Below, in pieces: positions 3,968 to 47,973 of a stretch of DNA of 64,000 bases. The DNA lies in contig JAOAAK010000009.1 in assembly GCA_026418905.1 (NCBI GenBank), positions 1 to 64,000 on the forward strand, read 5' to 3'. The notes beneath the pieces were generated by a model that worked only from the letters and a program-made list of their open reading frames with translations, made no database searches and had not been told where the DNA came from. Positions within the stretch are counted from its first letter, which is position 1. Every line of letters starts with the position of its first letter. The DNA is from Bacteroidales bacterium. Its GTDB lineage: Bacteria > Bacteroidota > Bacteroidia > Bacteroidales > DTU049. The position numbers were made by a program, and so were the translations under genes.

Positions 3968-5072
3968 ATATCAACGTGATATGCGTTGGAGAATGTATGA
4001 GGTGAATGGATGAAGATGTGAAAAAGGACGGTATGATTGATTTTAACCTAGTGAAATGCGTATCTGTAATAAAAATCTGATCTGTTTCCAGTTGCGAAAT
4101 AGTGATAAGAAGACGTTCTGCTCGGCTCTCATCGAGTTTATCAAATATATCATCGATCAAAATAATAGGTTTTTTACTTAAATGCTGGTAAGTAATCTGA
4201 TACTGGCTAACTTTGAGAGCGAGAAGAAAAGATTTTTGTTGTCCTTGACTTCCAAATTTTCTCATGTTATGGCCATCTGAAAGGAAAAGGAATTCGTCAC
4301 GATGAATTCCTTTTTCAGTAAAGCCAAGTTCGATGTCGCGTTTGAGGTTATTTTTTAAAATAAGTTCATAATCTTCATTCAAAAGCTGAGAAAAGTATTC
4401 GATGGAAATAGAAGAGTTGTTATCAACGATTTTATGATGGAAAAAAGGAAGTATCGTGTTAAGGTGATTGATAAAATTTTTCCTAATTTTAAAAATGTCT
4501 ATTGAAACAGTTATTAGCCTTTCGTCGAAAAAAGCGAGTTGTTGAAGAAAATGAGGGCTATGGGATTGTTTGAGTAAGGCATTTCGTTGCATAAGAAGTT
4601 TTTGATGTTGAATCAGTAATTCAAGGTAATTTTTATCTAATTGAGAAATGAAAGCATCAAAATATTTACGACGGTGTTCTGCAGATTCACTAACAATAGA
4701 CATATCGGAAGGAGCTATGAGAATAATCGGAACAAAACCAATATGCTCTGATAAACGTTCAATGATTTTATCATTAACTTTAATTTTTTTGCCTTTCTCC
4801 CGATCGACATAGATAGAAATCAAATGTGGTAAATCGTCGTATTCATCATTAACAGCTGCTTGGATATGGAAAAAAGCTTCGTTATGCTTAATACATTCTT
4901 TATCGCTGTTTTGAAGAAAACTTTTTGTGAAGCTTACGTAATGTATGGCATCTAATATGGTGGTTTTTCCGACGCCGTTTTTTCCACAAAAAGCAATACA
5001 TTGAGCATTAAGCGAGAGGTGGAGAGAATCGTAATTTTTAAAATTTAACAATTGGAGGGAAGGGATTTTCAT
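3966..5072 (-). CDS. recF: DNA replication and repair protein RecF
   Basis: 368 residues, the normal length for RecF, an SMC-like ATPase that helps load RecA at gaps with RecO/RecR. Visible motifs are an N-terminal 'LLNFKNYDSLHLSL', Walker A 'GKNGVGKTT' (about residues 30-38), the ABC signature region 'GSQGQQKSFLLALK' and Walker B 'PIILIDDIFDKLD'. The start overlaps the cinA stop by 4 bases (ATGA), implying translational coupling. In many bacteria recF sits next to dnaN and gyrB; here it sits with cinA and a glycogen enzyme. Its 3' end lies inside the T tract of the converging terminator. Confidence 0.95.
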   Translation of the reverse strand: MKIPSLQLLNFKNYDSLHLSLNAQCIAFCGKNGVGKTTILDAIHYVSFTKSFLQNSDKECIKHNEAFFHIQAAVNDEYDDLPHLISIYVDREKGKKIKVNDKIIERLSEHIGFVPIILIAPSDMSIVSESAEHRRKYFDAFISQLDKNYLELLIQHQKLLMQRNALLKQSHSPHFLQQLAFFDERLITVSIDIFKIRKNFINHLNTILPFFHHKIVDNNSSISIEYFSQLLNEDYELILKNNLKRDIELGFTEKGIHRDEFLFLSDGHNMRKFGSQGQQKSFLLALKVSQYQITYQHLSKKPIILIDDIFDKLDESRAERLLITISQLETDQIFITDTHFTRLKSIIPSFFTSSSIHLIHSPTHITLI

Positions 5073-6298
5073 GTTGATCGGAGAAGTTTAATTGTTTCAA
5101 ACATCATGGAATAAGCAGCCCATTGTATGTTATAAAGGCGATGGTTCCCAAATTGAAACTGATATGTTTTAATCTGATCTTGGAAAGCAATTGCACCCCA
5201 AACGTAGCCGACAGGTTTTTGTGGGGTACCACCATCGGGACCGGCAATTCCGCTAATAGCTATACAGACGTCAACATTGAGGAGAGATTTTCCTTCACGA
5301 GCCATGATTTTAACTGTTTCATGGCTAACAGCTCCATAAGATTGAATGATTTCCGTAGGAACGTGCAAAATTTTTTCTTTAATTTCATTAGCGTATGAAA
5401 CGATACTTCCTTTGTAGACTTGAGATGAGCCTGGGATAGAGGTAATTTTGTGGGCAAGATAACCGCCCGTGCAGCTTTCGCATGTGCCAAGGGTAAAATA
5501 ACGATTTTTCAGTTCTGTTAGAAGGATTTCTTCCAGAGAGGATTGAGTATTGCTTACGAGATATGGTTGAATAACTGGCAATAATTTTTCTTGAATTAAT
5601 AGTTCAGCCAGAGCTTTTTCATTCTCTGGGCAAGAAAGTCGTAGTCTGATATATCCAGGCGAAGGCAGATATGCCCATGTGAAAGTGGGAGGAAGACTTT
5701 GTTCGAAGTCCTGAAGTTGACTGCTTAGAAAAGATTCGTATGTGCCTGCGACAAGAAAATGAAAATGAAAAATAGGGTTCTCTTTTAACTGTTGAAGGAT
5801 AGGAGTAGCTTGATGTTGAAAGATTTCATGAAGTTCAGTTGGGACACCAGGAAAAGCAAATATGTGCTTTTCATCTTTCTGAGCATAAATGCCAGGAGCT
5901 ATGCCAACAAAATTTGGCAGAGGTCTCGAGCCCCGTGGAAACATAGCTTGTTGAATGTTATTTTCAGTAAATGGGCGTTTTCTTTCATCGAACTTTTGAC
6001 ATATTTCAGAAAGGATGCTATGATTTAATTCCAATTCTGTTCCCATAAAAGAAGCAAGTGCTTGACGAGTTAAGTCGTCTTTCGTGGGACCGAGTCCGCC
6101 AGTCAAACAAATAATTTGGGATTTACGACTCGAAAAATTTAGGGATTCAATAATGTCATCTATATTATCTCCAGTAGTCATGGCAGAGACGACATTAAAA
6201 CCCAACATGGTAAGCTGATCGCTTAACCAGTGGGCATTAGTATTAAGTGTTTGCCCAATAAGTAACTCGTTTCCTACTGAGATTACACTGGCTTTCAT
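5069..6298 (-). CDS. cinA: CinA: competence/damage-inducible protein A, nicotinamide-nucleotide amidase
   Basis: 409 residues from the ATG at 6298 ('MKASVISVGNELLIGQ'). A longer reading from 6316 would add six residues inside the upstream gene, but the family begins at MKAxxIxxGNELL, so I chose 6298, one base after the previous stop. Residues 1-170 form the MoCF-like domain ('CLTGGLGPTKDDLTRQ'), and the last ~150 the amidase domain ('CESCTGGYLAHKIT', 'GIAGPDGGTPQKPVGYVW'). The enzyme deamidates NMN in pyridine nucleotide salvage; the N-terminal domain in relatives is an ADP-ribose/NADH pyrophosphatase. It overlaps recF by 4 bases. Confidence 0.95.
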   Translation of the reverse strand: MKASVISVGNELLIGQTLNTNAHWLSDQLTMLGFNVVSAMTTGDNIDDIIESLNFSSRKSQIICLTGGLGPTKDDLTRQALASFMGTELELNHSILSEICQKFDERKRPFTENNIQQAMFPRGSRPLPNFVGIAPGIYAQKDEKHIFAFPGVPTELHEIFQHQATPILQQLKENPIFHFHFLVAGTYESFLSSQLQDFEQSLPPTFTWAYLPSPGYIRLRLSCPENEKALAELLIQEKLLPVIQPYLVSNTQSSLEEILLTELKNRYFTLGTCESCTGGYLAHKITSIPGSSQVYKGSIVSYANEIKEKILHVPTEIIQSYGAVSHETVKIMAREGKSLLNVDVCIAISGIAGPDGGTPQKPVGYVWGAIAFQDQIKTYQFQFGNHRLYNIQWAAYSMMFETIKLLRST

Positions 6299-6299
6299 G

Positions 6300-9200
6300 T
6301 CAAAACCATTTAACAAGTGGGAAATCTTGACGATGAGGCATGAGGTCGTTGTAAGGAGTTACACGAATAGCATAATCGAAAACACCAGCCTTTTTGTTAG
6401 ATAATACGGCCTCGAATCGTGCAATATTATTTTTAAAACTAGTAGGTTTCATTTCTTCAATAAAAAGAAACTGATCAATACGATCATGAATTTTTTGTCC
6501 AAAGATGAGCTCAACTTTGATATCTCTTGGACTGAGATCTGCTAGGTAGAGCTCAATAGCAGCTATAAAGTCCTCTCCTAAAACAAGAGGTTTAATGGTA
6601 CTGTCGGGTAATTCAAGTTTTCTTTCATAAATTTCATTGAAATTTTCTTCCACTTTTCTTTTCCATTTCATCCATTCCAGAAAGAGTTCGAGATCTTTTT
6701 CTGTGAGTTGATGATAGCGTTTCATAAGAGGGAAATAATATTTCTGAAGATATTCATTTATCATTCGCTTCGTGACGTAATAAGGAGCAATTCGTGTAAA
6801 GGCGTTTCGAATAAATCCAATCCATTTACATGGTATGTCATTTGGATTTCGGTAGAAAAAAGAAGGTACGATTTCATCTTCGATGATTTCATAAAGAGTT
6901 TCAGCATCAAGTTCGTCTTGCAAGCGTTGATCTAAGTAGGTTCGTTTTTCTTCGAGAGCCCATCCGGCTTTGGGTTTGTATCCTTCAGCCCACCATCCAT
7001 CTGATACACTAAGGTTAAGAACTCCATTCATAACAGCTTTCATACCACTAGTACCGCTAGCTTCAAGGGGACGTGTTGGAGTGTTTACCCACACGTCTAC
7101 ACCGCTGACGAGCAAATGAGCAAGTTCCATGTCATAATTTTCAAGGAAGAGGATTTTTCCTCTAAATTCTGGCATTCGACTAATTTGAATGATGTTCTGA
7201 ATAAGTTTTTGTCCTTCTACATCAGCAGGATGAGCTTTACCGGCAAACACAAAGAAAACCGGTCGATCGGAATTACTTACAAGTCTTTTTAACCTTTCTG
7301 TGTTGTTTAAAATTAGATGTGCTCTTTTGTAGGTAGCAAACCTTCTAGCAAAGCCAAACCAAAGGGCATTATCAGATATAGTATTGAGAATTTCCACTAT
7401 ATGCCTTGGTGCTTCCTGGCGACGAACGAGTTCTTCGGACAATCTTATTTTAATTTTTTCAACAAGACGGCTTTTAAGTTGTTTTCTAACGTTCCAAATT
7501 TCATCTTCGTTGAGTTCGTTGAAGATTTTCCAATTGTCAGGATCGCTCATGTCTAATTCTAAGATGTTGATATATTTTTTTTGTAACAATTGTTGCCACA
7601 TAGGGTCCATCCATGTGGGAAGATGAACGGCATTGGTAATGTGTTGAATGAATAGTTCGTCGGTAAAAAAACCTGGGTAGAGTGGGGCAAACATTTCACG
7701 AGTAACCGTTCCATGAATTTTACTAACTCCATTAGTTTGAACAGATCCTTTGAGTGCAAGGATGCTCATACTAAATTTTTCGTCTTTATTATAAGGACCA
7801 ATAAGTCCTAGGGAAACAAAATCCTGCCAATTTATATTGAGTTTTTCGCAATAGTCAGCAAAGTAGATACGTAATAATTCTTGACTGAAAACATCATGTC
7901 CTGCTGGAACTGGTGTATGGGTGGTAAAAAGTGTGTTATTTCTAACTAATTCTAATGCCTGATGAAAATTAAGTACATATTGCTGCATGGCCTGTTCAAT
8001 ACGTTTGAGGATCGAGAAAGCTGCATGTCCTTCGTTGATATGGTAAACATCAATTTTTTTGCCGAGTTTTTCAAGCACCATTACACCACCGATGCCTAAT
8101 AATATTTCTTGTTTTAATCTTACTTCACTATCACCGCCATAGAGTTGGTAAGTAATGCTTCTATCTTCAGGTGCATTTTCATCAAGATCCGTATCAAGTA
8201 AAAATAGTTCTACACGTCCTACTTGAATTTTCCATACTTTAGCATGTATTTCTCGCCCAGGAAAGGTAAGCTGTATGGTAATCCATTTTCCGTCTTTGTC
8301 GCGAACCGGTATTAAGGGAAGCACAGAAAATTTCTGAGGTAGATATTGGTTGACTTGCATGCCATCATGACTTAGGGTTTGATGGAAGTAACCATATCGA
8401 AATAGTAATCCAATGCCAGTTAAAGGTAAACGTTGGTCCGAAGCTTCTTTAAGGTAATCGCCAGCAAGTATGCCGAGACCACCTGCATAAAGCTTAAGGG
8501 AAGAATGAAAACCATACTCCATACAGAAGTATGCAACTGATGGTTTCGAATAATCCAACCCTTCTTCCATGTATGATTTAAAACGATGGTAGATTTGACT
8601 GAGTTCGTCCATAAAATTTTGATCGTGAGTTAATTGAATAAGTTGCTGGTATGGTATCATTTCAAGCATTTTGAGAGGGTTATGCGCAGAAAGTTCCCAA
8701 TTTTCTGGATGGATGGAAGCAAAAAATTCCTCTACCTCAGGATGCCATGTCCACCAAAGGTTTCGCATTAGCTCCAGCAAAGGTTCAAGTTGTGGAGGGT
8801 ATTTGGGCTTGATGAGTATTTTTCTCCAAATGGGTTCCTGAAATGAAGTTTTAATTTGTTGTAGAGGTAAAGGTATTTTAGTCTTAAAATTCTCGGAACG
8901 TTGTAGTACAAGTTTAAGTCCTGTCTCATAGGCAGTAAGGTAGTGAGTGATGAAGTTTTTCCAGCTGCATTCTTTGGCTATTTCTATAGCTTTAAGACGA
9001 TCGTTCTGACGTTTTTCTTCTGAAGAATTTAAATATTCTAGAATTTTATTTGCAAGCAAATTCTTAACTTCGTCGTAGTTGTAATCGTTACGGTTAAGTA
9101 CAGTAACAGCAGTTTGGTTAGGATGATTTTTTAATATCCAGCTTCCAAAGCCAGCCAAGCTGGTGGTAATGGTGGGGATGCCGTAAGCAATGCTTTCCAT

Positions 9201-12642: not shown

Positions 12643-12726
12643 TGCCCGAGGCCGGACTCGAACCGGCACGGAGTTGCCTCCATTGGTTTTTGAGACCAAC
12701 GCGTCTACCATTTCCGCCACTCGGGC
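12643..12726 (-). tRNA. tRNA-Leu (anticodon CAA)
   Basis: On the minus strand an 84-base class II tRNA folds with acceptor stem GCCCGAG/CTCGGGC, discriminator A, a D arm, anticodon stem TTGGT/ACCAA with loop CTCAAAA (anticodon CAA, reading UUG), a long variable arm (TGGAGGCAACTCCGT) and the T arm GCCGG-TTCGAGT-CCGGC. The long variable arm and A73 fit leucine. The 3' CCA is not encoded (ACT follows), so it must be added by the CCA-adding enzyme. Confidence 0.97.
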
Positions 12727-22357: not shown

Positions 22358-23566
22358 TTAAAGCTTTTCGATAAGGCAAGAAATTCCTTGGCCTACTCCG
22401 ATACACATGGTACAGAGAGCGTATGTGAGTTTTTTTCTTTGAAGTTGAAGCATAGCAGTTAGCACAAGTCTAGTTCCCGACATACCAAGGGGATGTCCTA
22501 AAGCTATAGCTCCACCTTGGGGATTGATGCGTGGGTCTTGATCGTCTAGTTTCCAACTTCTTATGCATGCAAGGGCTTGAGCAGCAAAAGCTTCGTTTAT
22601 TTCGATAAGATCGATGTCTTTCCATTCAATACGAAGCCGGGAAAATAATTTTTCAGTAGCAAGTACAGGTCCTATGCCCATGATGCGAGGTGGCACACCA
22701 GCAACGGCTGAGTCGATATAACGAGCTACAGGCGTTAAGTTATATTTCTTAATGGCTTCTTCGGAGGCTACCAATACTACGGCTGCTCCATCGTTAATAC
22801 CACTAGCATTGCCTGCAGTTATCGTACCATGAGGAAAAGTAACAGGTTTAAGAGCAGCAAGTTTCTCGAGCGAAGTTTGCCGCATATGTTCGTCTCGATT
22901 AAATAAAATAGGGTCACCTTTTGGTTGAGGGAGAGGGAAAGGAATTACTTCTTCGTTAAAATAGCCAGCTTCCCATGCAGACCAGGCTTTTTCTTGACTC
23001 CATAAAGCAAACTTATCTTGGTCCTCACGAGATATGTTCATTTCACGGGCAAGGTTCTCAGCTGTTTCAGCCATGCTTTCGATGCCATATAGCTTTTCCA
23101 TGATGGGATTCGGAAAGCGCCAACCAAGAGTGGTATCATATACCTTTACTTCACGAGAAAATGGAACTTCAGTTTTAGAAAAAACAAATGGGGCGCGACT
23201 CATATTTTCAACACCTCCAGCTATAATCAGATGGGCACTTCCCATTTTGATCTTACGGACTGCATAATCGATAGCTTCCATACCAGAACCACAGAGCCTA
23301 TTAACAGTGACACCAGGTACGGTGTGGGGGAGACCAGCTAACAATAAAGCCATCCTAGCAACGTTTCTGTTGTCTTCTCCGGCTTGATTCGAACAACCTA
23401 AAACCACTTCGTCAAAATCAGAAGGTGGAATTTGAGGTAGTTTTTCAACAAGTTTCTTGATGACATAAGCAGCTAAATCATCTGCACGAATGGTACTTAA
23501 AGATCCCCCGTATTTTCCAATGGGGGTTCTAAGGCCTATGCAAAGAAATGCTTCCTTCATCTCCAT
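22358..23566 (-). CDS. PcaF-like thiolase (3-oxoacyl-CoA thiolase), last gene of the beta-amino acid operon
   Basis: 402 residues. Catalytic Cys92 is in '[10 protein letters not shown]', His358 in '[14 protein letters not shown]' and Cys388 in 'CIGVGQG'. Stretches such as '[20 protein letters not shown]' and '[15 protein letters not shown]' are nearly as I remember 3-oxoadipyl-CoA thiolase (PcaF), more than acetoacetyl-CoA thiolases. It would cleave a 3-oxoacyl-CoA with CoA into acetyl-CoA plus a shorter acyl-CoA (succinyl-CoA if the substrate is 3-oxoadipyl-CoA). It overlaps the aminotransferase gene by 10 bases. No other beta-oxidation gene is near, so it probably works only on the product of this operon. 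Confidence 0.93.
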
Positions 23567-24876
23567 TCTTTAATGAGTGGTTTAACATGTTTGAACATAC
23601 CCAAGATAACTTCTGAAAGTCGATCAATTTCTTTTTCCGTCATCACAGTGCTTGGCATGAATGTAAGGGAATTAATGGCAATGATACCATTTTCATATAG
23701 ATAATCGAGGGCTGCTTTAATGGCTTGTTTATTGGCTTGTTCGTACAAATAAGTCTCTCGGTAATGTTGAGGAGCGGGATGTGTAAAAAATAGACGAAAG
23801 AATGTCCCCATTCCTGTTAGGCTTATGGGAATTCCTACTGATTTTGCTGCATCTAAAATTTGAGTTTTTGCACGTTCGGTGAGTGCTTTTAAGTAGTTAA
23901 CTTTTTCTTGGGTGTAATGTTCCATTGCTATTTTTCCAGCTGTCATAGAAATTGGATTAGCTGAAAAAGTACCTGACAAAGCATATCTATAATTGGTACT
24001 ACGAGGATTGAGGATATCCATAATTTTCTTGGAACCGGCCAATGCCCCTATAGGAAATCCACCCCCGATAATCTTACCTAAGCTTGTCAGGTCTGGTTTA
24101 ACTGGATAATTTTCCTGAGCTCCTTGAAAATCGCATCGAAAAGTAACTACTTCGTCAAAACAAAGTAAAACATTATGTGCTTTACACCAATCGTAAATAG
24201 CATATATAAAATCGCGTTGGGCAGGAACCATAGAAATACGGTGTGGAACTGGATCGATTAAAATGGCTGCTAATTTGTCTTTGTAGTTATTCAAAATTTG
24301 AATAGTAGTTTGAGCATCGTTGAAAGGAAAAACTACTACATTGTTAAGCACCCCATCGGGTGTTCCGACGACATGAGGGACGGATTTAGGATTGTTATAG
24401 CTTCCCCAATTGTCTGGATTAGGGTCTTGACTAACTTCTGCTGTATCATAACTGCCGTGATAAGCTCCCTCAGCTTTAGCGATCATAGGTCTGTTGGTAA
24501 AAGCTCGTGCAGCTTTAACCATAGCCATGACAGCTTCTGTCCCTGAGTTGACAAAACGTACTTGCTCAAATTGAGGCACCCGGCTGGTTAGAAGTTCAGC
24601 AAACTCAATCTCAATTTCTGTACCCAACATGTAGGCAGTTCCTTTTTTTAATTGTTCAGTTACTGCTTCTACAATAGGTGGGTATGCGTGACCATGAATA
24701 AGGGATGCCACATTGTTAGAGAAGTCAATGTAATTTTTTCCATCAACATCAGTTACAGTAAAACCTGATGCTTTTGCTACATAAACAGGATGTGGATCTC
24801 TTAAAATTAAATTTCTGCTAATGCCACCAGGTAAAACATGAAGAGCCCTTTCGTATAAAAACTTACTTTTTGACAT
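23557..24876 (-). CDS. Class III aminotransferase, beta-transaminase-like (GSAM-related)
   Basis: 439 residues. PLP lysine is Lys268 in 'LTSLGKIIGGGFPIGA'; 'NSGTEAVMAMVKAARAFT' and 'LLCFDEVVTFR' are the cofactor motifs. It would be annotated as glutamate-1-semialdehyde aminomutase, but there is no tetrapyrrole gene here, and the N-terminal 'LPGGISRNLI' has an Arg (Arg21) at the place where the Variovorax beta-phenylalanine aminotransferase, as I recall it, has Arg41 ('PGANSRSVL'), the residue that holds the carboxylate of beta-amino acids. I infer that it turns a beta-amino acid into the 3-oxo acid. The gene starts 3 bases after the CoA-transferase stop and overlaps the thiolase gene. Confidence 0.88.
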   Translation of the reverse strand: MSKSKFLYERALHVLPGGISRNLILRDPHPVYVAKASGFTVTDVDGKNYIDFSNNVASLIHGHAYPPIVEAVTEQLKKGTAYMLGTEIEIEFAELLTSRVPQFEQVRFVNSGTEAVMAMVKAARAFTNRPMIAKAEGAYHGSYDTAEVSQDPNPDNWGSYNNPKSVPHVVGTPDGVLNNVVVFPFNDAQTTIQILNNYKDKLAAILIDPVPHRISMVPAQRDFIYAIYDWCKAHNVLLCFDEVVTFRCDFQGAQENYPVKPDLTSLGKIIGGGFPIGALAGSKKIMDILNPRSTNYRYALSGTFSANPISMTAGKIAMEHYTQEKVNYLKALTERAKTQILDAAKSVGIPISLTGMGTFFRLFFTHPAPQHYRETYLYEQANKQAIKAALDYLYENGIIAINSLTFMPSTVMTEKEIDRLSEVILGMFKHVKPLIKEWR

Positions 24877-24879
24877 ACG

Positions 24880-25521
24880 TTATATAATTATATGAGCATC
24901 TGTATGTTGCATTAAATACTCAAGGTTAACATGGGGGGCAAGTCTAATAACTTTAAGTCCAGCTTTTGTCACTTCTAATATAGCAAGTTCAGTATAAATT
25001 CTGGTTACTACACCTTTACCTGTAAGAGGATAAGTGCATTCTTTAACGATTTTAGGTTTCCCGTCTTTAGTGGTGTGTCTCATCATGACAAACACATTTT
25101 TTACTCCTTGTACTAAATCCATTGCTCCACCGACAGCAGGAATATCATCAGCGTTCCCAGTCGACCAATTGGCCAGATCACCTTTTTCGTTTACCTGATA
25201 AGCTCCCAGTATGGTATAGTCTAGGTGTCCCCCTCGTATCATAGCAAAGCTATCAGCATGATGAAAAAAAGATGCACCTTTGATAGCAGTTACAGGTTTT
25301 TTTCCTGCATTGATCAACTCATAGTCTTCTTCATTAGGAGAGGGGGATGGACCAACTCCTAACAATCCATTCTCTGTATGGATAATAATTTCCCTTCCTT
25401 CTGGTATATAATTGGCCACAAGTTCAGGTAATCCAATTCCAAGATTGACGTAAGCCCCATCTGGTAAATCTTCTGCTACATTACGTGCTATTTCTTCATT
25501 TGACCATCCAATGGTATTCAT
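24880..25521 (-). CDS. 3-oxoacid CoA-transferase subunit B (PcaJ/ScoB-like)
   Basis: 213 residues. The catalytic glutamate that forms the CoA thioester is Glu50 in 'IIIHTENGLLGVGP'. Other family segments are 'GAYVNLGIGLPELVANYI', 'FFHHADSFAMIRGGHLDY' and 'IPAVGGAMDLVQG'. With subunit A it moves CoA from succinyl-CoA (or another donor) to a 3-oxo acid. Sequence detail looks closest to 3-oxoadipate CoA-transferase, though acetoacetate-type (Sco) enzymes are similar. It overlaps the A subunit gene by 4 bases. Confidence 0.93.
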   Translation of the reverse strand: MNTIGWSNEEIARNVAEDLPDGAYVNLGIGLPELVANYIPEGREIIIHTENGLLGVGPSPSPNEEDYELINAGKKPVTAIKGASFFHHADSFAMIRGGHLDYTILGAYQVNEKGDLANWSTGNADDIPAVGGAMDLVQGVKNVFVMMRHTTKDGKPKIVKECTYPLTGKGVVTRIYTELAILEVTKAGLKVIRLAPHVNLEYLMQHTDAHIII

Positions 25522-26228
25522 GGATATCTAACATTTTGAGCTATTAAATAATGTTCATGTTGTGGGTTTGGCACATGAACAACTCGTTGAACAAATATGC
25601 CGGGTGTTACGACACATTCGGGATCAATTTCTCCGGGTTCTACTATTTTCTCAACTTGAACAATGGTTGTTCGTGCAGCCATACACATAATAGGGCCAAA
25701 ATTGCGAGCAGTTTTGTTGTAGGTTAAATTTCCATAGCGATCAGCACATTTAGCTTTAATTAAAGCAAAATCTGCTTTTAATGCAAATTCAAGTACGTAT
25801 TCTTTATTGTCGAAAATTCTCTTTTCTTTGCCAAGCTCAAGAGGAGTACCGACACTGGTAGGCGTGTAAAAGGCAGGAATACCTGCGCCGCCAGCTCGTA
25901 TTCGTTCAGCTAAAGTTCCTTGAGGAACAAGTTCAAGTTCTATTTCTTTTTTCCTATAGAGTTCAGGAAATACTTCAGAGTGAGAAGTTTTAGGGTAAGA
26001 GCAAATAATTTTTTTCACGCGTCTTTGTTCCAACAAGGCAGCCAAACCTACATGACCACTTCCTGCATTATTGCTTATAATGGTAAGATCTTTAGCACCC
26101 TGATCAATAAGAGCGTGTATGAGTTCGATTGGGCTACCCGCCTCACCAAACCCACTGATCATGATGATTGCCCCATCAAAGATATCTGCAACAGCATGAT
26201 GTATATCTGGATAAATTTTGTTGATCAT
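25518..26228 (-). CDS. 3-oxoacid CoA-transferase subunit A (PcaI/ScoA-like)
   Basis: 236 residues. 'IIMISGFGEAGSPIELIHAL', 'LTIISNNAGSGHVGLAALL' and 'LVPQGTLAERIRAGGAGIPA' are the CoA-transferase family I alpha-subunit motifs; 'SVGTPLELGKEKRIFDNKEY' lies in the substrate lid. 'ISNNAGSGHVGLAALL' and 'KIICSYPKTSHSEVFPELY' are closer to PcaI than to acetoacetate enzymes as I remember them. It begins 10 bases after the radical SAM aminomutase gene and overlaps subunit B by 4 bases, so all are one transcript. Confidence 0.93.
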   Translation of the reverse strand: MINKIYPDIHHAVADIFDGAIIMISGFGEAGSPIELIHALIDQGAKDLTIISNNAGSGHVGLAALLEQRRVKKIICSYPKTSHSEVFPELYRKKEIELELVPQGTLAERIRAGGAGIPAFYTPTSVGTPLELGKEKRIFDNKEYVLEFALKADFALIKAKCADRYGNLTYNKTARNFGPIMCMAARTTIVQVEKIVEPGEIDPECVVTPGIFVQRVVHVPNPQHEHYLIAQNVRYP

Positions 26229-26238
26229 ACATCATAAT

Positions 26239-27816
26239 TTAGTGTATAGCCTCTTTGTGAGTTCTCATGGCTTCGCGAATATTCGAATCTAATTTTTCTT
26301 CAATTTCGTGAAGTTCGTCAATAAAGAAAAATTTATCAGATCTGAAAGGTTTCAGATGCATAATGTTGGTTACTTTATCGTCATATTCAGCAAAAAAGAC
26401 CGTGTCCATCCAATCCATATTACGACCCTCGTTCACTTTCAAAGCAATGACTTTTTGACCGTCAATTTCTGTAATACCCAGTAAGCTGATTTTACCAGCA
26501 GATACAGTCATTGTGATATAACGACTTGGACGATTAATAGATGAAAGTTCTTTATAAATTTTGTTGAAAATTTTAATAATGTCCACAAGAGGACGTGTGA
26601 AATATTGGACTTCACCAGTAGGTCTTGGCACATACATAGCGTGAAAACCTACGCCCAACATGGCCATCATATTACCAAGATCAATCCAATTTTGGGCAGA
26701 TCTGTCAACATCAATTTCGCCGTTTTCCTTAGTCCACATGCTAATATTTAACATGATAGGGCTTTGAGATTTAAGTGTTACCCCATATTTTTTTAATCTG
26801 CGTATGGCAGCAATGGTAGTAATATTCATCAGTTCGCGGGGTGTTGAAAAATGTGCGGTCATGAAAGGTTGGATACCATTATCATAAAGTAGCTTAAAAA
26901 GATTTAGCATATCATCGTAGGAATGAGAAAGAATCATTTCAGGGTAGTAAGATAGAACACGAGAACCTATACGTACAGTTCGGATATGCGATAACTCAGG
27001 ATCGTTAATAATGGGCTCGATGTATTGACGAAAACGTTCAGGTTGTATGTAACCACCATCACCCCCCGTGATCAGAATGTCTGATACCTCCTTATGTTTT
27101 TTGAGATAATTGATTATTTGTTCAACACTTTTCTGAACAAACATGTCTTCATCACCACGTACTTGAGCATGACGAAAACAATATGTACAAAAAGCAAAAC
27201 AGCTTTGCGTTTGTTCGTCAAGAATTAAAGCAATGGGGGGATATTTGTGTTGTACGCCGTGTAAAATTTCTACTTCATCATTTTCGTTGATAAATATAGG
27301 CTTATTAAGCAATTGTTTTCCATCGTGGGGATTTGTTTCCTTGATATATTCTTTGATAAGTTTGTCTCTTTCATTGTCCGAAGTGGCTTCAAGAATGCGT
27401 TTTCTAGCATCTTCTCTAACCATATCTGGTTGAGGAAAAGTCAAATAGAACAAAGGATCATTTTGGTAGTTATCCCAATCGATCAAATTTAAGACATGGC
27501 GAGTTACCATGAATCGATATACGTGAATGAATACTTCCCGTTCAGGAATGCGATCGATAACAATACCATGGTCAGATAATTTCTGGACAATTTCGCGAAA
27601 TCCTTCCAGACCTACCCATCGTTTTTTTTCATTAAACAAAACTCGAGGCTTTTTTTGCATTAAAGAATATTGGGAATAAGCCCTTTGAAGCCTATTTAAA
27701 ACGCCAAGTGGTAAAAGATCTTCGCTCTCTGCGATTTCTTTCATTTCATCTGTGAAAAAATATTGATCCATCAGGGATGCAAGATCCTCATGGGTAATTG
27801 ACTTAAATTGGCTCAT
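26239..27816 (-). CDS. KamA-family radical SAM 2,3-aminomutase, likely for an acidic amino acid
   Basis: 525 residues, about 100 longer than typical lysine 2,3-aminomutase, with extra sequence at the N-terminus. The radical SAM cluster ligands are Cys206, Cys210 and Cys213 in 'CFAFCTYCFRHAQVRGD'; 'DILITGGDGGYI' follows. PLP lysine appears to be Lys442 in 'TVSAGKISLL'. Aligned without gaps on PLP-Lys and the HFRT-like 'YFTRP', the two Asp residues that bind the lysine side chain in the clostridial enzyme (293 and 330, 37 apart) fall on Arg398 and Thr435, also 37 apart. That argues against lysine and for a substrate with a side-chain carboxylate. First gene of the five-gene operon; a -7 box is 13 bases upstream. 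Lysine fermentation partners (kamDE, kdd, kce, kal) are absent. Confidence 0.9.
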   Translation of the reverse strand: MSQFKSITHEDLASLMDQYFFTDEMKEIAESEDLLPLGVLNRLQRAYSQYSLMQKKPRVLFNEKKRWVGLEGFREIVQKLSDHGIVIDRIPEREVFIHVYRFMVTRHVLNLIDWDNYQNDPLFYLTFPQPDMVREDARKRILEATSDNERDKLIKEYIKETNPHDGKQLLNKPIFINENDEVEILHGVQHKYPPIALILDEQTQSCFAFCTYCFRHAQVRGDEDMFVQKSVEQIINYLKKHKEVSDILITGGDGGYIQPERFRQYIEPIINDPELSHIRTVRIGSRVLSYYPEMILSHSYDDMLNLFKLLYDNGIQPFMTAHFSTPRELMNITTIAAIRRLKKYGVTLKSQSPIMLNISMWTKENGEIDVDRSAQNWIDLGNMMAMLGVGFHAMYVPRPTGEVQYFTRPLVDIIKIFNKIYKELSSINRPSRYITMTVSAGKISLLGITEIDGQKVIALKVNEGRNMDWMDTVFFAEYDDKVTNIMHLKPFRSDKFFFIDELHEIEEKLDSNIREAMRTHKEAIH

Positions 27817-27877: not shown

Positions 27878-29731
27878 TTAAGCAGCATTTTTTTCGAAAC
27901 TTATCAAAACAGTTTTTTCTTCTTCAGTAATATTTTGGTTGGCTTCAGCTGCTTTTTTCATTTGTTTTAACACTTTTTCCTTCTGTTTTTGAGATGGGTA
28001 CATCAATTTAAGTCGACCCTTCTGTGCAGCTTTTAAAAAGCCGTTTATTTTTTTGGTAGAATAACCTAATTTTTTAGCAAGTTCATTGATGTAATTCATT
28101 TCAGCTTCGTCAATTTGACCATCAGATGCAAGGATTACACAAATGTTGTTAAATACATAATCACGAATATTGTACAATTCGTTTAGTGTATCTTTTTTAG
28201 TTTTCAGTAAATATTTGTCTTGTATGTATTGTTGATATTCTTCTGATTTCATCATGATGTGAACGATCCATTCATGTTTAGCGCTGTTAATGAGTTCTCC
28301 GCAATAAGAGCAAGTAAGTAAAGTAGTATCTTCCAGTGTCCCACCGCAGCAAGGGCATTGATGCACGTAGATTGAACCCTTGGGTAAAGCTGCGTTGACG
28401 TCTCTTTTAAGAATGAGTATGTATGACTCAGATGTAAGAGCATAATCTATCCAATCGATTGAGTCGTTAAGAATACGAAGTCTCCGGTATGAAACTTTGA
28501 TATGGAAAGATAGATAGTCCATATTATTTTGTTGCCACATGTTTGTAAGCGTAACAAAATTCAAATAAAGCCTGGAATATATGGTTTTTTCTTGGGGGAT
28601 GTAGCTTTCGAAAAAATCATCACTTGAAAACCTGCGAATTCGAATAGAATCATCGAGAGCATGAGCTATAAGAATTTGCATAAATGCGTTGCTAGCTTTG
28701 TCTTCCATCCACTGAATAGAAAAATAAGGATCTCTCGAATATAACGATGAAAGTTCTGTTTTGAAAGTATTCAATTTAGTTGACAATTTTTTTGCAATGG
28801 GATAATCGTCTATTTGAGTAATTTCAGATAAAATCCAATCAAACTCTCCTGTGTTAAGAATAGTATTACAATAGGGACATTGACATACTTCACTTTCAAG
28901 TTCTTCCAAGATTGCTCCACACTGAGGGCAATGTTGCCCTTGATAAAGATTGGCATCTTTCCTAAATCCAGTTTTTCTTATAAAAGTCCATATTTCTACA
29001 AATGGCTCAGTGTAAACTTCCTTAAGAGAGGGAATTTTTTTTGATCTAAATTGATCAGTCATAGAAGCAGCGATGGCTACATCCATTACAAGGTAATTTC
29101 CATCAATTTTTATATCAATGATTTTAATATTTTGAATTTTTATGTCTGTTATTATATTTTTTTGTTCTATTTGTTTCATCATAATAAATTGGGCATTGAA
29201 TCGCTGAAATAAACCATCGCTAATGAATTTACGTATTGATCGTATAGATTGCTTACTCCAAGCCTCTTGTATTTTAATAAAAGCATGTTTCACTTTCTCA
29301 GAAAAAGAAATGAGATCAAAATCAGGATCAATGTTTTTTACTTCTTGAAACTTATCGATAAAATCATCTGTCGTTGCAGGAATTTTATTTAGGATGGTTT
29401 TTTGTTTAGTTTTTTTGTTGTAGAAATATATTGCACCTATTAAGCCACCAATAATTATCAGATTCCATGGAAATGGGACGTACACTAGAATAAAAAAAAT
29501 AAGGTCACCAATAAGATTATCTCCACTACCACTATAGCCTCCACCACCATTGCTCTCTCCACCTCCACCACCGGCTCTAGCTAGAAGAAAGAGAATAGTT
29601 CCTAAGGAAAGAATTAAAAAAAATACTGCTCTAAAATTTAGATGGCCTTTTTTCACTTTTTTACAAAAATATTTATTTAATTCAGATGAAAAAAAATACA
29701 TGTGATAAAAATTTAGTTTTAGTACGTACAT
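27878..29731 (-). CDS. Tim44-like domain protein with two zinc ribbons and a C-terminal TerB-like domain
   Basis: 617 residues from the first ATG; a second ATG (29701) is possible. Order: hydrophobic segment 'FRAVFFLILSLGTILFLLAR', a Gly-rich linker 'AGGGGGESNGGGGYSGSG', a second hydrophobic segment ('NLIIIGGLIGAIYF'), a Tim44/TimA-like domain (about 130-270), zinc ribbon 1 ('CPQCGAILEELESEVCQCPYC'-like, CxxC pairs), a second alpha/beta domain, zinc ribbon 2 ('CPCCGGTLED', 'CSYCGELI') and a C-terminal helical domain with 'VILASDGQIDEAEMNYINEL', the acidic loop of TerB-like proteins. It is a membrane-anchored cytoplasmic protein of unknown role. Confidence 0.75.
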   Translation of the reverse strand: MYVLKLNFYHMYFFSSELNKYFCKKVKKGHLNFRAVFFLILSLGTILFLLARAGGGGGESNGGGGYSGSGDNLIGDLIFFILVYVPFPWNLIIIGGLIGAIYFYNKKTKQKTILNKIPATTDDFIDKFQEVKNIDPDFDLISFSEKVKHAFIKIQEAWSKQSIRSIRKFISDGLFQRFNAQFIMMKQIEQKNIITDIKIQNIKIIDIKIDGNYLVMDVAIAASMTDQFRSKKIPSLKEVYTEPFVEIWTFIRKTGFRKDANLYQGQHCPQCGAILEELESEVCQCPYCNTILNTGEFDWILSEITQIDDYPIAKKLSTKLNTFKTELSSLYSRDPYFSIQWMEDKASNAFMQILIAHALDDSIRIRRFSSDDFFESYIPQEKTIYSRLYLNFVTLTNMWQQNNMDYLSFHIKVSYRRLRILNDSIDWIDYALTSESYILILKRDVNAALPKGSIYVHQCPCCGGTLEDTTLLTCSYCGELINSAKHEWIVHIMMKSEEYQQYIQDKYLLKTKKDTLNELYNIRDYVFNNICVILASDGQIDEAEMNYINELAKKLGYSTKKINGFLKAAQKGRLKLMYPSQKQKEKVLKQMKKAAEANQNITEEEKTVLISFEKNAA

Positions 29732-31878: not shown

Positions 31879-33099
31879 ATGAGACCGATTGATGATAAGA
31901 TTATTCCCGTGAGTGATAAAGTTCAATGGGTAGGAGTTCTCGATTACGATATTGTAACTTTCGATATCGTCATGGAAACTGAATTTGGTACAACCTACAA
32001 CAGCTATCTCATTCAGAGCAAACAGAAAACGCTTATAGAAACCGTAAAAGAAACTTTTTGGCCTATTTATAGGAAAAAATTAGAACAGCTAACCCATTTG
32101 CAAGACATCAAATACGTTGTATTGAATCATACTGAGCCAGATCACAGTGGTAGTTTAAAGTTTCTTCTTGAAGAAGCTCCAGACATTACCGTAGTTGGTT
32201 CAGGTAATGCTATTCGTTATTTAAAAGATCAGGTGAATCGTGAGTTTAAACATATCATTGTTAAAGATGGCGATATACTGGATTTGGGTGATACACAGCT
32301 TAGGTTTATCTCTGCTCCCAACTTGCATTGGCCTGATTCTATGTACACCTATCTCGAAAATGATCAACTACTTTTTACCTGTGATAGTTTTGGTTGTCAT
32401 TATTGTCATGAAGAAATGATAGACACCAAGGTTGGCGATTTTGATAAAGCTTTTGACTATTATTTTGATGTTATTCTCAAACCTTACAGCAAGTTTATGT
32501 TAAAAGCACTAGAAAAAATTGAAAATCTTCCTATCAGGGCAGTTTTAACAGGTCATGGTCCATTGCTTTTGAATAAGTGGAAATATTACGTGGATCGCAC
32601 GAAGTCTCTCTCTGAAGAATATTTAAGCAAGCCACAACCAAATTTTGTATTTATTTCCTACGTGAGTGCGTACAAGAACACGGCCAAAATAGCTGAAGCC
32701 ATTGCCCAGGGAGTTGAGGAAGGTGGTTGCAAACCCATTGTAATGGACATCGAGAAAGCACCACTTGGCGATCTTGAGCAGCATTTAATATTGTCTAAAG
32801 GATTGGTGGTAGGAACACCTGTGATCAACCAAAACATTCTATTGCCAACTTATAAACTTTTTGCTGCTGTCAATCCCATTAGAGATAGAGGTAAAATTGC
32901 TGGGGCTTTTGGTTCTTATGGTTGGAGCGGCGAGAACAAAACCATCGTCAAAACAATTCTTGAATCTTTGAAATGGAAATTCATCGGTGATGGGCTTTTC
33001 TTTAAGTTTTCACCTAACTCTGATGATTTTGCTGATGCTAAGGAATACGGAAAACAAATTGCCCAAGCAGTTTTGCAACTCAATATTGAAACAGCATAA
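31879..33099 (+). CDS. FprA-type A flavoprotein (diiron flavodoxin oxidoreductase)
   Basis: 406 residues. The N-terminal metallo-beta-lactamase domain has diiron ligands H84-x-E86-x-D88-H89 in 'NHTEPDHSGSL' and a late His in 'VLTGHGPLL'; the C-terminal half is flavodoxin-like ('FISYVSAYKNTAKIAEAIA', 'GAFGSYGWSGENKTI'). The family reduces O2 to water or NO to N2O and protects anaerobes; the electron donor (rubredoxin or ferredoxin) is not encoded nearby. A near-consensus -7 (TACTTTAG, 31857-31864) precedes it. The upstream ATG at 31871 is followed at once by a stop, so 31879 is the start. Confidence 0.93.
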   Translation: MRPIDDKIIPVSDKVQWVGVLDYDIVTFDIVMETEFGTTYNSYLIQSKQKTLIETVKETFWPIYRKKLEQLTHLQDIKYVVLNHTEPDHSGSLKFLLEEAPDITVVGSGNAIRYLKDQVNREFKHIIVKDGDILDLGDTQLRFISAPNLHWPDSMYTYLENDQLLFTCDSFGCHYCHEEMIDTKVGDFDKAFDYYFDVILKPYSKFMLKALEKIENLPIRAVLTGHGPLLLNKWKYYVDRTKSLSEEYLSKPQPNFVFISYVSAYKNTAKIAEAIAQGVEEGGCKPIVMDIEKAPLGDLEQHLILSKGLVVGTPVINQNILLPTYKLFAAVNPIRDRGKIAGAFGSYGWSGENKTIVKTILESLKWKFIGDGLFFKFSPNSDDFADAKEYGKQIAQAVLQLNIETA

Positions 33100-44761: not shown

Positions 44762-46363
44762 CTAATTCTTTATAACCAGTTTTCTAATTTTTCCATGTGA
44801 GGTCATGACGTCAAGAAGGTATGTTCCACGAGGATAGGGAGTAAGGGAAAGAATACAGTTTCTAGAGTTCGGATTTAAAATGTTAAGAGTTTTACCAGTT
44901 ATGTCGTATAATTGAATGTATTGAATGGAATAATCAGATGAAATAAGGATTTCATTTTGAGAGGGGTTGGGGTAAATGTTTAAAGAGAAATTTTCGGGGT
45001 CAGGTAAGGCATTGGCATTCCAATCGGACCAATAGTAAATGTATTTATAGTCGGGAATCCATGAGCTTGTTCCATTATCCCAGGTTGAATATATATACAT
45101 GGTTGGATTGTTGTAGGAATCATAAGTAGTAGAATATCTGCTAAAAGGTGTAGGTGGGTCACCTACATAATTAATCCTTTCCGTTTCGTATAAGCCTGTT
45201 GGATCGTATTGGTAAGTAGTTTTATAATAAATAATCCATGTGGAAGTAACTTTGTCGTAGCCTTCTTGAAGAAGCTGAGTTAATTTCCCTTGGGCGTTAT
45301 ATGTATAAGTGTTCCTAAAGTACAGATCCCAGTTTGTACCGTTCCATTGTTCGAAGAGTTCTTGTAATAAAAGTTCTTGTGCATTGTATGTATATGTGCT
45401 CCTTTGCCAGGGGATCCATTGATTTTGAACATTATTCCATCCATAGTAATATTTCTTGATAAGCAATCCATTCGAATTGTAGACCATGCTGTCTTTGTAA
45501 TCAGGAATAAATTGATTCATACTATTGGTGATATATGATACAGAAGTTTTCTTCAATCCATTAGGATAATATGTATATTCTTCTTTGTTACTGTTCAACC
45601 AAATGGTTGAAAAATATTGATGCACATAAGTTTTTAATAGACCATTGTTATAATATGCGTACATATATCGTTCACTGTTTTCATATGTTTCAGTGGATGT
45701 GTTCCAGTTATAGAATGTTTTTATTGCAGGCAGATTTTGGGAATTATATTCATAAGTTTCTTTTTCTTGTTTAATATCGTATTTTTCAGTTGCGGGGTTG
45801 TATGCGTACGAATATCTTTCATGATATTGGGAGTCCGTTAAGAAAACAGAGTAAGTCTTATAGCCATAGGTGAGAGAGTTGACATTAAAATCATAATTTG
45901 CTTCAATTTCCATAATACGAAGAGAATCGCTAAATTGATCTCTATACGGTGCTCGATGGTCGAAAAAAACTGTGTCTATAAATTCTTCGAGGAAATCATT
46001 GTAAGCTTTGACCAAAATTTTTTCCAAACTATGATTGGGAAAATAATCAAATTTTTGATAATAATAGACTTTCCAGGCGTTATCCTTATATGAATAATAT
46101 AGCATTTCATTTGGCCATCCATCTGTTCCCCAATGACGGCTGATGATGGCAAATTTATCCTTGGGTTTCCATTCCGATAGAACAAGATCATAAACAAATT
46201 TTACGATAGAGTCAAGAACTCTAATAGTCCCATGGCTGGTTTTTACAGGGTTCAAAAAAGTCAATTTATTGGCGTTTTCATTAAAAAAATGCGTCTCTTC
46301 CTGTGCTGTCGTGAAGGAAAAAGCGACGCTAACAAAAAAAAGAAACGTTAAACCTTTTTTCAT
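44762..46363 (-). CDS. T9SS type A sorted YD-like repeat protein (paralogue 1 of 3)
   Basis: 533 residues: signal peptide ('TFLFFVSVAFSFTTAQ'), a conserved N-terminal part with 'ISRHWGTDGWPNEMLYYSY', about eight repeats of 35-40 residues with 'YTYNAQGKLTQLLQEGYD' cores and paired Trp residues, a 'YYWSDWNANAL' linker, and a type A sorting domain at the end ('LNIYPNPSQNEILIS', 'PRGTYLLDVMTSHGKIRKL'). It is exported by Sec and the T9SS to the surface. Most of the sequence is repeat, suggesting binding or a scaffold; no enzyme motif is visible. Starts 4 bases after the stop of the next paralogue. Confidence 0.88.
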   Translation of the reverse strand: MKKGLTFLFFVSVAFSFTTAQEETHFFNENANKLTFLNPVKTSHGTIRVLDSIVKFVYDLVLSEWKPKDKFAIISRHWGTDGWPNEMLYYSYKDNAWKVYYYQKFDYFPNHSLEKILVKAYNDFLEEFIDTVFFDHRAPYRDQFSDSLRIMEIEANYDFNVNSLTYGYKTYSVFLTDSQYHERYSYAYNPATEKYDIKQEKETYEYNSQNLPAIKTFYNWNTSTETYENSERYMYAYYNNGLLKTYVHQYFSTIWLNSNKEEYTYYPNGLKKTSVSYITNSMNQFIPDYKDSMVYNSNGLLIKKYYYGWNNVQNQWIPWQRSTYTYNAQELLLQELFEQWNGTNWDLYFRNTYTYNAQGKLTQLLQEGYDKVTSTWIIYYKTTYQYDPTGLYETERINYVGDPPTPFSRYSTTYDSYNNPTMYIYSTWDNGTSSWIPDYKYIYYWSDWNANALPDPENFSLNIYPNPSQNEILISSDYSIQYIQLYDITGKTLNILNPNSRNCILSLTPYPRGTYLLDVMTSHGKIRKLVIKN

Positions 46364-46367
46364 ACGA

Positions 46368-47969
46368 TTATTGTTTTATAATGGAACGAATTATTTTCTT
46401 ATTTGATGAATCCGTGAAGCTAAAGCAGACGAAATAATTGGCTGGTTTCAGTTCTGAAAGATCGAAAGAAAAAGACAAAGAATTATCGGTGCCTTTTGAG
46501 AGGAGTATCTGTCCCATTGAGTTGTATATGTCAATTTTACATACAGGTAAGGAACTCCGAATGAAACATATGTCTTCAACGGGGTTAGGAGATAAGGTAA
46601 TTTCAACATCCGGGTCCTCAGAGAGTGCATTGGCATTCCAATCGGACCAATAGTAAGCCAGTTTATCATTGGGGATCCAAGAACTGCTCATATTGTCCCA
46701 AAAAAAATTTGTATGAATGTTGAGGTTATTATATGAGTCGTAAGAAAAAGTTTCTTTAAATTGAGGTGTTAAAGGTGATCCTGTGTAAATAATGTGTTCT
46801 TCTACTTGGCCTGTGACATGATATTGCCATGTAAATTTGAGAACATCCTCCCATGATGAAGTGATTGTATTATATTGTTCTTCAACATATTGAATTAATT
46901 TTCCTTGAGCGTTGTAGGTGTAAGTACCTCTGCAATTAGGTATCCAATTTGTTCCATTCCAGTTTTCGTATAGAACTGTTTTGATTGAATCGTCACCGTT
47001 GTATGTTTTACTCATTTTTGCGTAATTAACCCACAATTTTTGTAAATCGTCCCAACGAAAGATATAGTTGAGAGTTACTTTGCCAGTTGGACTGTAACAA
47101 AAACTGTCTTTATAATATGGAACAAATTCATTAAACGAGTTGATGGAGTAGCTAGTAATAGTTTCCGGATAGCCATTAGAATTATATGTATAGTGATTTT
47201 TACCATTATTAAGCCACACGCCAGATGACATATATTGGTATGTAAGGGATTTAATTTTACCAGTAGAATAGTAGGAATATAGAATACGATGATTGTTTTC
47301 ATATTGTGCTGTGCTTGCATTCCATGAAGCAGTAGTTTTCGTCTGTAAAAGTTGATTGTTGGTATATTCATATGAAATCTTATAGTTATTTAAATCATAG
47401 TTGCCAGTAGCAGTATTATAACCGTAGGAAATGATTTCATGGTATTGAGAATTTGTTAGCATATGTGAGATTATTTTTTCTCCACCAGAAATGCTGTTGG
47501 TATTAAAATCGTAATAATTACTAATTGTTGAAAGCAAAATACTGTCATTAAACTGGTCTTTGTAGCCATTAAAATGTTCGAAAACCAACGTGTCTCTAAA
47601 ACTCTCCAAAAAAGAATTATATGCTTTAATGACATGCTTTTCTATCTTTTGATTAGGGAAAAACTGCCATGTAAAAAGGTAACGAGATTTCCATGTATTA
47701 TCTTCAAAGTCATATCGAACCATTTCATTTGGCCATCCATCAGTACCCCAATGGCGACTGAGAACATAGGTCTTACGAATGGGATCCCATCCAAGAGTTG
47801 AACTATTGTAAGTAAATAAGATCGTTGAATCAAGTACGCGAATCATTCCTTGAGAAGACTTAATTGGGAAAAATGAGTAAGGCGAGATTTCAAGTAATTT
47901 TTTGGTTGACTGACTCATACATGTAAATAAAAAAAGAGTCAAGAAAATGCTTAAATAAAATTGTTTCAT
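46368..47969 (-). CDS. T9SS type A sorted YD-like repeat protein (paralogue 2 of 3)
   Basis: 533 residues, the same length and plan as paralogue 1: signal peptide, 'SRHWGTDGWPNEMVRYDF' near residue 75, about eight repeats ('YTYNAQGKLIQYVEEQYN', 'ENWNGTNWIPNCRGT'), the 'YYWSDWNANAL' linker and a type A sorting domain ('ITLSPNPVEDICFIRSS', 'LKPANYFVCFSF'). It shares a 30-base identical stretch with paralogue 1 at the linker, which suggests recent duplication or gene conversion in that spot. Four bases separate it from each neighbour. Confidence 0.88.
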   Translation of the reverse strand: MKQFYLSIFLTLFLFTCMSQSTKKLLEISPYSFFPIKSSQGMIRVLDSTILFTYNSSTLGWDPIRKTYVLSRHWGTDGWPNEMVRYDFEDNTWKSRYLFTWQFFPNQKIEKHVIKAYNSFLESFRDTLVFEHFNGYKDQFNDSILLSTISNYYDFNTNSISGGEKIISHMLTNSQYHEIISYGYNTATGNYDLNNYKISYEYTNNQLLQTKTTASWNASTAQYENNHRILYSYYSTGKIKSLTYQYMSSGVWLNNGKNHYTYNSNGYPETITSYSINSFNEFVPYYKDSFCYSPTGKVTLNYIFRWDDLQKLWVNYAKMSKTYNGDDSIKTVLYENWNGTNWIPNCRGTYTYNAQGKLIQYVEEQYNTITSSWEDVLKFTWQYHVTGQVEEHIIYTGSPLTPQFKETFSYDSYNNLNIHTNFFWDNMSSSWIPNDKLAYYWSDWNANALSEDPDVEITLSPNPVEDICFIRSSLPVCKIDIYNSMGQILLSKGTDNSLSFSFDLSELKPANYFVCFSFTDSSNKKIIRSIIKQ

Positions 47970-47973
47970 ATTG

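Follow-up and report, generated by a model that had tools for sequence, protein, structure and literature searches.

Contig JAOAAK010000009.1 of the Bacteroidales bacterium assembly GCA_026418905.1 carries, on the minus strand of the 64,000-nucleotide stretch analyzed here (the window), a five-gene operon (22358-27816) that probably encodes the lower half of a lysine degradation route, a judgement that applies to the substrate and to the overall reaction, whichever of transamination and coenzyme A (CoA) transfer comes first. The genes, termed KAM, CTA, CTB, AT3, and THL, encode an aminomutase-like protein, two CoA-transferase subunits, an aminotransferase, and a thiolase. In the proposed pathway, enzymes coded outside the operon (in the window's genome, lysine-ketoglutarate reductase [LKR] and saccharopine dehydrogenase [SDH]) would convert lysine by way of saccharopine to 2-aminoadipate semialdehyde, from which an aldehyde dehydrogenase would form 2-aminoadipate. 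KAM, a radical S-adenosylmethionine (SAM) and pyridoxal phosphate (PLP) enzyme, would then shift the C2 amino group to C3, yielding 3-aminoadipate, which AT3 would transaminate to 3-oxoadipate. CTA/CTB would transfer CoA from succinyl-CoA onto 3-oxoadipate, and THL would cleave the resulting 3-oxoadipyl-CoA to acetyl-CoA and succinyl-CoA. Since the CoA donor would thereby be restored, the predicted sum is 2-aminoadipate to succinate and acetyl-CoA, without 2-oxoadipate, glutaryl-CoA, or oxygen. With somewhat less assurance, we regard it as likely that KAM is the first 2-aminoadipate 2,3-aminomutase and that the cluster is an undescribed lysine route, ending in the beta-ketoadipate way, in Bacteroidota, Ignavibacteria, and Neomarinimicrobiota. 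Gene order, protein families, catalytic motifs, the predicted KAM fold, and gene co-occurrence are established from sequence; what we infer are all substrates, the direction of the route, and whether transamination or CoA transfer comes first.

Gene order and spread of the operon

The five open reading frames (ORFs) in the window's ORF list are intact, all on the minus strand, and spaced by +10, -4, +3, and -10 bases from KAM to THL, which bears out the first-pass annotation of this DNA (five minus-strand genes with gaps of -10 to +10 bases). Its five family assignments also agreed with our family searches, KAM being only remotely KamA-like. KAM (26239..27816; 525 amino acids) is a radical SAM/PLP protein with a lysine 2,3-aminomutase fold in a predicted model, and is predicted to be a 2-aminoadipate 2,3-aminomutase. 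CTA (25518..26228; 236 amino acids) and CTB (24880..25521; 213 amino acids) are subunits A (TIGR02429) and B (TIGR02428) of a 3-oxoacid CoA-transferase, the latter with the ENG-motif glutamate at residue 50. AT3 (23557..24876; 439 amino acids) is a class III aminotransferase (PF00202) of the HemL-like group with its GK motif at residues 267-268, predicted to be a beta-transaminase of 3-aminoadipate or its CoA ester, and THL (22358..23566; 402 amino acids) is of the 3-oxoadipyl-CoA thiolase type (PcaF; TIGR02430) with LCGSG, GHPLG, and CIGVGQG motifs. The catalytic roles of the motifs in CTB, AT3, and THL are general knowledge.

A scan of genome contigs returned 26 loci, 19 of which (L032-L049 and L057) encode KAM at ~48-73% identity, while the remaining seven (L050-L056) encode a sister family, KAM2, at 33-36% identity. 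The first-pass annotation had suggested looking for the five-gene order in other genomes; 18 of the 19 KAM loci have KAM-CTA-CTB-AT3-THL in full, L041 being cut by a contig end after CTA, and the homologous genes are thus co-localized. In L032, ~4.5 kb separate CTB from AT3 and a contig end cuts THL; in L046, from a Desulfuromonadales metagenome-assembled genome, KAM is split over two overlapping frames (5033-6771), through either assembly error or decay. By their titles, the 19 records derive from Bacteroidota, Chlorobiaceae, Ignavibacterium, Neomarinimicrobiota, one member of the Desulfuromonadales, and one Gammaproteobacteria bacterium. All five genes were also found in genomes G005, G009, and G133, whereas only KAM, CTA, and CTB were seen in G007 and G010, the G010 contig ending soon after. 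Among 345 evenly drawn genomes of the phylum, KAM itself (>900 bits) occurred only in G000 and G133, and 32 others gave only weaker, sister-type matches (~244-323 bits). The cluster is therefore rare, widely spread, and holds together, and the recurrence of its order in several phyla rules out chance proximity of the five genes.

The ~4.5-kb block between CTB and AT3 in L032 (3469-7462), a locus of a close relative, encodes a DUF134 protein, a CobA-type adenosyltransferase, and two each of Nitro_FeMo-Co proteins and ParA/ferredoxin ATPases; it is not present in G005 or G009.

Predicted substrates of the five proteins

By family scores KAM stands well apart from described aminomutases. It scored 86.6 bits against the KamA family TIGR00238 (cut-off 199.2), 24.9 bits against PF04055 (gathering score 29.5), 77.1 bits against the lysine 2,3-aminomutase equivalog TIGR03820 (cut-off 525.4), and 61.7 bits against glutamate 2,3-aminomutase TIGR04368 (cut-off 650). 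Comparison of profiles with hhalign, however, matched KAM to nine lysine-2,3-aminomutase-like proteins with a probability of 99.8 (E 1.6e-29), and a model predicted for KAM (mean pLDDT 76, pTM 0.82) retrieved lysine 2,3-aminomutase (LAM) 2a5h in a fold search at Z 23.4, with a root-mean-square deviation of 3.1 over 313 residues. All other entries scored Z 10.2 or less and were taken to reflect the shared radical SAM barrel. Profile and predicted fold together tie KAM to LAM. In a tree, which carries a long-branch warning, 17 KAM sequences formed a clade of their own (100/100), separate from both the sister clade (87/99) and the LAM-like sequences.

The active-site residues point to a different substrate. 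With the numbering of 2a5h set through a close canonical relative, C206, C210, and C213 of KAM are the cluster cysteines, R215 corresponds to LAM R134, R398 to D293, T435 to D330, and K442 to K337, the PLP lysine. The radical SAM cysteines, R134, and K337 were kept in all 17 KAM sequences, whereas D293 was replaced by arginine in all 17 and D330 by threonine in 15 and serine in two; at each of these two positions, seven of the nine LAM-like sequences have aspartate. In glutamate 2,3-aminomutase the lysine-binding aspartates are replaced by lysine and asparagine, as described in one report (PMC3965090). Since both lysine-binding aspartates are replaced in KAM, its substrate would more likely carry an acidic side chain than be lysine. 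On the strength of these replacements and the scores, an ordinary lysine 2,3-aminomutase was rejected as the identity of KAM.

Two relatives of the window's family, G005 (L026) and G010 (L027), encode a second KamA-like protein, and that of G005 scored 775 bits as a true lysine 2,3-aminomutase; G005 also encodes KAM, and both kinds can therefore coexist. The sister family KAM2 (L008, L010, and L050-L056) has arginine for D293 and serine for D330 in 9/9 sequences. The other four cluster genes were found in none of its seven scan loci, one ORF of L055 having a borderline CTB label, and KAM2 was thus rejected as a part of the cluster. In L051, KAM2 lies 3' of mreB, mreC, pbp2, and rodA genes.

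THL scored 601.5 bits against TIGR02430 (pcaF), above the equivalog cut-off of 597, and all four THL orthologues tested passed, the other three with 675.7, 638.9, and 633.7 bits (a margin of 37-79). Among solved structures, the beta-ketoadipyl-CoA thiolases come nearest to the THL of the window (487-496 bits; the best, 6pca, 496). Solved entries named only as thiolase scored 392-494 bits, with one more at 293, and those named acetyl-CoA acetyltransferase reached at most 318 bits except for 1ulq ("putative"; 464). CTA and CTB exceeded their cut-offs (355.8 vs. 128.5 bits for TIGR02429 and 304.7 vs. 243.55 bits for TIGR02428), and the best solved relatives of CTA are succinyl-CoA:3-ketoacid CoA-transferases. 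These scores identify a transferase of the 3-oxoacid kind and leave the acid itself unsettled. AT3 matched PF00202 with 190.5 bits (cut-off 30.5) and the HemL equivalog TIGR00713 with 342.2 bits, under its cut-off of 527.3, a shortfall on which a true glutamate-1-semialdehyde aminomutase was rejected. Among solved structures, AT3 scored 349 bits with 6k8h, 315 with ForI, at most 228 with HemL enzymes, and 176 and 170 with the beta-transaminases 2yku and 4ao9.

Lysine-pathway genes and competing explanations

The strongest single facts for 2-aminoadipate are the gene linkages in G056 and G054. In G056 (L048, L153, and L154), KAM, CTA, CTB, AT3, THL, piperideine-6-carboxylate (P6C) dehydrogenase, and saccharopine dehydrogenase lie on one strand, the P6C dehydrogenase (804 bits; cut-off 730) beginning 47 bases after THL. 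In G054 (L046 and L164), one strand carries P6C dehydrogenase, KAM, CTA, CTB, AT3, THL, and a 358-amino-acid protein of the saccharopine dehydrogenase family. The best solved relative of the latter is PH1688, which we take to be a lysine dehydrogenase. G050 and G053 have P6C dehydrogenase, saccharopine dehydrogenase, and LKR next to one another, and P6C dehydrogenase adjoins LKR in G133, on stretches other than that of KAM in all three. In the flanks, of which part of the ORFs were scanned, the genes were mostly unrelated to amino acid metabolism.

Co-occurrence points the same way. A saccharopine dehydrogenase of ~450 amino acids (>190 bits) was found in 18 of the 24 KAM genomes (G007 by a partial match), as against 80 of the 345 phylum-sample genomes by hand count, G000 and G133 included. 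Lysine 6-aminotransferase (LAT) was over its cut-off in four of the other six (G043, G048, G049, and G058, all Chlorobi/Ignavibacteria); G054 has its linked dehydrogenase instead, and G051 has neither enzyme. LKR was present in 20 of the 30 genomes searched: the 18 with saccharopine dehydrogenase, among which the G056 match was weak (154 bits), one of five genomes with the sister clade only, and G133. The window's genome encodes an LKR on contig C40, nearest to the LKR domain of human AASS (248.6 bits), and on contig C14 a protein that matches saccharopine dehydrogenases/reductases (218 bits); the gene adjoining the latter was considered as the LKR and proved to be Ffh. Taken together, the linked and co-occurring genes, which are predicted to make 2-aminoadipate from lysine, favor 2-aminoadipate, as the first-pass annotation had suggested. 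Its broader outline, from an alpha-amino acid through the beta-isomer and 3-oxo acid to a CoA ester and acetyl-CoA, is likewise supported by the conserved gene order, the lost aspartates, the PcaF-type thiolase, and these same genes.

Several observations weigh against this interpretation. Its main weakness for the window's genome is the family-wide lack of P6C dehydrogenase: the best match to P6C/aminoadipate semialdehyde dehydrogenase (NF050084) in this genome reached 225.6 of the 730 bits required, and none of the six genomes of the window's family had a match over the cut-off, G040, from which L032 derives, being left out of this count since its match has the same position and score as that of G003. 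Of the two aldehyde dehydrogenases that the search revealed, one is a P5C dehydrogenase (762.9 bits; cut-off 613.6) and the other did not reach the cut-off of any of the 25 best families listed; that another enzyme, such as P5C dehydrogenase, performs the semialdehyde step in this family is a guess. Outside the family, P6C dehydrogenase was over the cut-off in 15 of 18 KAM genomes and in G133, the exceptions being a 488-bit partial match in G044 and none over the cut-off in G049 and G051. Because it also occurs in 172 of the 345 phylum-sample genomes, its presence was dropped as evidence by itself. G051 further lacks any front-end gene over the cut-off and any match to LKR or saccharopine dehydrogenase. 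The KAM genomes are related and not independent, and the co-occurrence counts ignore kinship; moreover, all 19 scan records are metagenome-assembled genomes, of which single ones may bear a wrong phylum label. As for the proteins, the KAM model has low confidence at residues 188-228, the region holding the cluster cysteines, and the arginine and threonine of KAM do not discriminate between 2-aminoadipate and glutamate. The THL of the window clears the pcaF cut-off by only 4.5 bits, and known beta-transaminases are more distant from AT3 than are ForI and the HemL enzymes. The support comes from sequence and a predicted model.

The same substrate could be processed in another order, a variant within the proposed route, with the CoA-transferase acting on 3-aminoadipate, AT3 on 3-aminoadipyl-CoA, and THL last. 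The gene order (mutase, CoA-transferase, aminotransferase, thiolase) would match such a sequence, and Kat, a HemL-like class III enzyme, transaminates 3-aminobutyryl-CoA in lysine fermentation, as reported in PMC3149608. Against this stand the assignment of CTA and CTB to 3-oxoacid transferase subfamilies, with CTA closest to succinyl-CoA:3-ketoacid transferases, and the weaker resemblance of AT3 to transaminases of free beta-amino acids; we consider the CoA-first order unlikely, though a serious contender. Glutamate is an abundant substrate and fits the acidic-side-chain reading of the KAM residues equally well. It would pass through 3-aminoglutarate (KAM) and 3-oxoglutarate (AT3), with CoA transfer and thiolysis giving acetyl-CoA and malonyl-CoA. 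Since THL scores as a 3-oxoadipyl-CoA thiolase, KAM is far from the glutamate 2,3-aminomutase cut-off (61.7 vs. 650 bits), and the linked and co-occurring genes make 2-aminoadipate, the glutamate route seems improbable. Lysine itself, with KAM as a divergent lysine 2,3-aminomutase and the remaining enzymes degrading a product of beta-lysine, is the least probable substrate and very nearly dismissed: the predicted LAM fold and the catalytic residues are kept, yet both lysine-binding aspartates are replaced in all 17 KAM sequences and the lysine 2,3-aminomutase score is 77.1 vs. 525.4 bits. A search for lysine 5,6-aminomutase (PF09043) gave no match in 25 genomes, with no match in any control genome either.

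In Neomarinimicrobiota and G133 the cluster might instead be linked to biosynthesis, homocitrate-pathway enzymes feeding it 2-oxoadipate or 2-aminoadipate. The outcome would be conversion of 2-oxoglutarate and acetyl-CoA to succinyl-CoA with recovery of the acetyl-CoA, which would bypass 2-oxoglutarate dehydrogenase, or, in reverse, the formation of 2-aminoadipate from succinyl-CoA and acetyl-CoA. In L042 (1576-6765), from a Neomarinimicrobiota metagenome-assembled genome, the strand that encodes KAM also carries, upstream of it, a fused homoaconitase (782 vs. 530 bits) and a homoisocitrate-dehydrogenase-like gene; L044 and L045 have genes that fall into the same sequence clusters, and G133 has the pair on a contig other than that of KAM (L233:5317-9669). 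However, homocitrate synthase was not recognized among the neighbors scanned, the last of these scans being at E 1e-60 only; the homoisocitrate-dehydrogenase-like gene reached the cut-off of none of the families listed, and homoaconitase is absent from G000, G003, and G010. Genes for lysine degradation are present in the same genomes, and the pair may be part of lysine synthesis. We therefore hold this link to be very improbable and, by a shade more so, the specific version in which the cluster and homocitrate enzymes of Neomarinimicrobiota form an acetyl-CoA-primed bypass of 2-oxoglutarate dehydrogenase. Degradation of lysine through 2-aminoadipate and 3-oxoadipate remains our preferred explanation. 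If true, several bacterial phyla would possess a new radical SAM activity and another fate for 2-aminoadipate, and lysine catabolism from 2-aminoadipate would be possible without glutaryl-CoA and without oxygen. Some annotations of "lysine 2,3-aminomutase," "HemL," and "beta-ketoadipate" in such genomes would be wrong, and the operon would offer an enzyme source for 3-aminoadipate, a C6 dicarboxylate building block.

Surroundings of the operon and relation to known systems

Upstream of KAM, a same-strand gene (27878-29731) for a Tim44/TimA-like protein (below the cut-off) ends 61 bases before it, and downstream an RNase E/G-family gene lies 491 bases from THL. A promoter scan gave no excess over shuffles and a terminator scan fewer sites than shuffles. 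In the window, Rfam at gathering scores yielded a single match, a tRNA gene (12643-12726, minus strand), and repeats were unremarkable. Elsewhere in the window, three tandem similar ORFs of ~530 amino acids (44762-49560, minus strand) show by eye tyrosine-rich repeats and a secretion-like tail. A flavorubredoxin-like protein (31879-33099, plus strand; 280 bits, below the equivalog cut-off of 635) would fit an anaerobe meeting some oxygen or NO.

Each of the families has been described before; relative to the literature searched, what is new is their combination, the KAM clade, and the reaction predicted. We found no description of a 3-aminoadipate or 2-aminoadipate 2,3-aminomutase route in open-licence literature, which is not proof of absence. 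The earlier statement that no described pathway has this gene set holds to the extent that none was found there; a partial precedent is the Bacillus subtilis region from kamA to yodT (BSU19690 and BSU19740 in PMC6522883). B. subtilis KamA is a true lysine 2,3-aminomutase by assay, according to that paper. As in the operon, genes for such an aminomutase and for a class III aminotransferase are close to those for CoA-transferase subunits in that region. Its genes yodP-yodS also include an acetyltransferase and a deacylase, and the region is not known to encode a thiolase.

Lysine 2,3-aminomutase (KamA/AblA; 2a5h) resembles KAM in its fold, as judged from the predicted model, and in CxxxCxxC, R134, and K337. 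KAM differs in its length of 525 amino acids, its separate clade, the replacement of D293 by arginine and of D330 by threonine or serine, and a score far under the cut-off. Glutamate 2,3-aminomutase shares with KAM the replaced lysine-binding aspartates, one by a basic residue, the pair there being lysine and asparagine (PMC3965090) instead of arginine and threonine or serine. The variant lysine fermentation of Cloacamonas with Kat likewise joins a HemL-like transaminase and a CoA-transferase to an aminomutase route for lysine, but proceeds, according to PMC3149608, by way of lysine 5,6-aminomutase, 3,5-diaminohexanoate dehydrogenase, and a cleavage enzyme to acetoacetyl-CoA, none of which is encoded in this operon. 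The lower beta-ketoadipate pathway (PcaIJ and PcaF) uses the same CoA-transferase and thiolase families and has as an intermediate 3-oxoadipate, predicted here also; there it derives from aromatics, whereas here it would come from an amino acid. Finally, in saccharopine and LAT-P6C lysine degradation, LKR, SDH, LAT, and P6C dehydrogenase supply 2-aminoadipate, as they would here; in those pathways it continues to 2-oxoadipate and glutaryl-CoA, whereas the operon is predicted to direct it to 3-aminoadipate.

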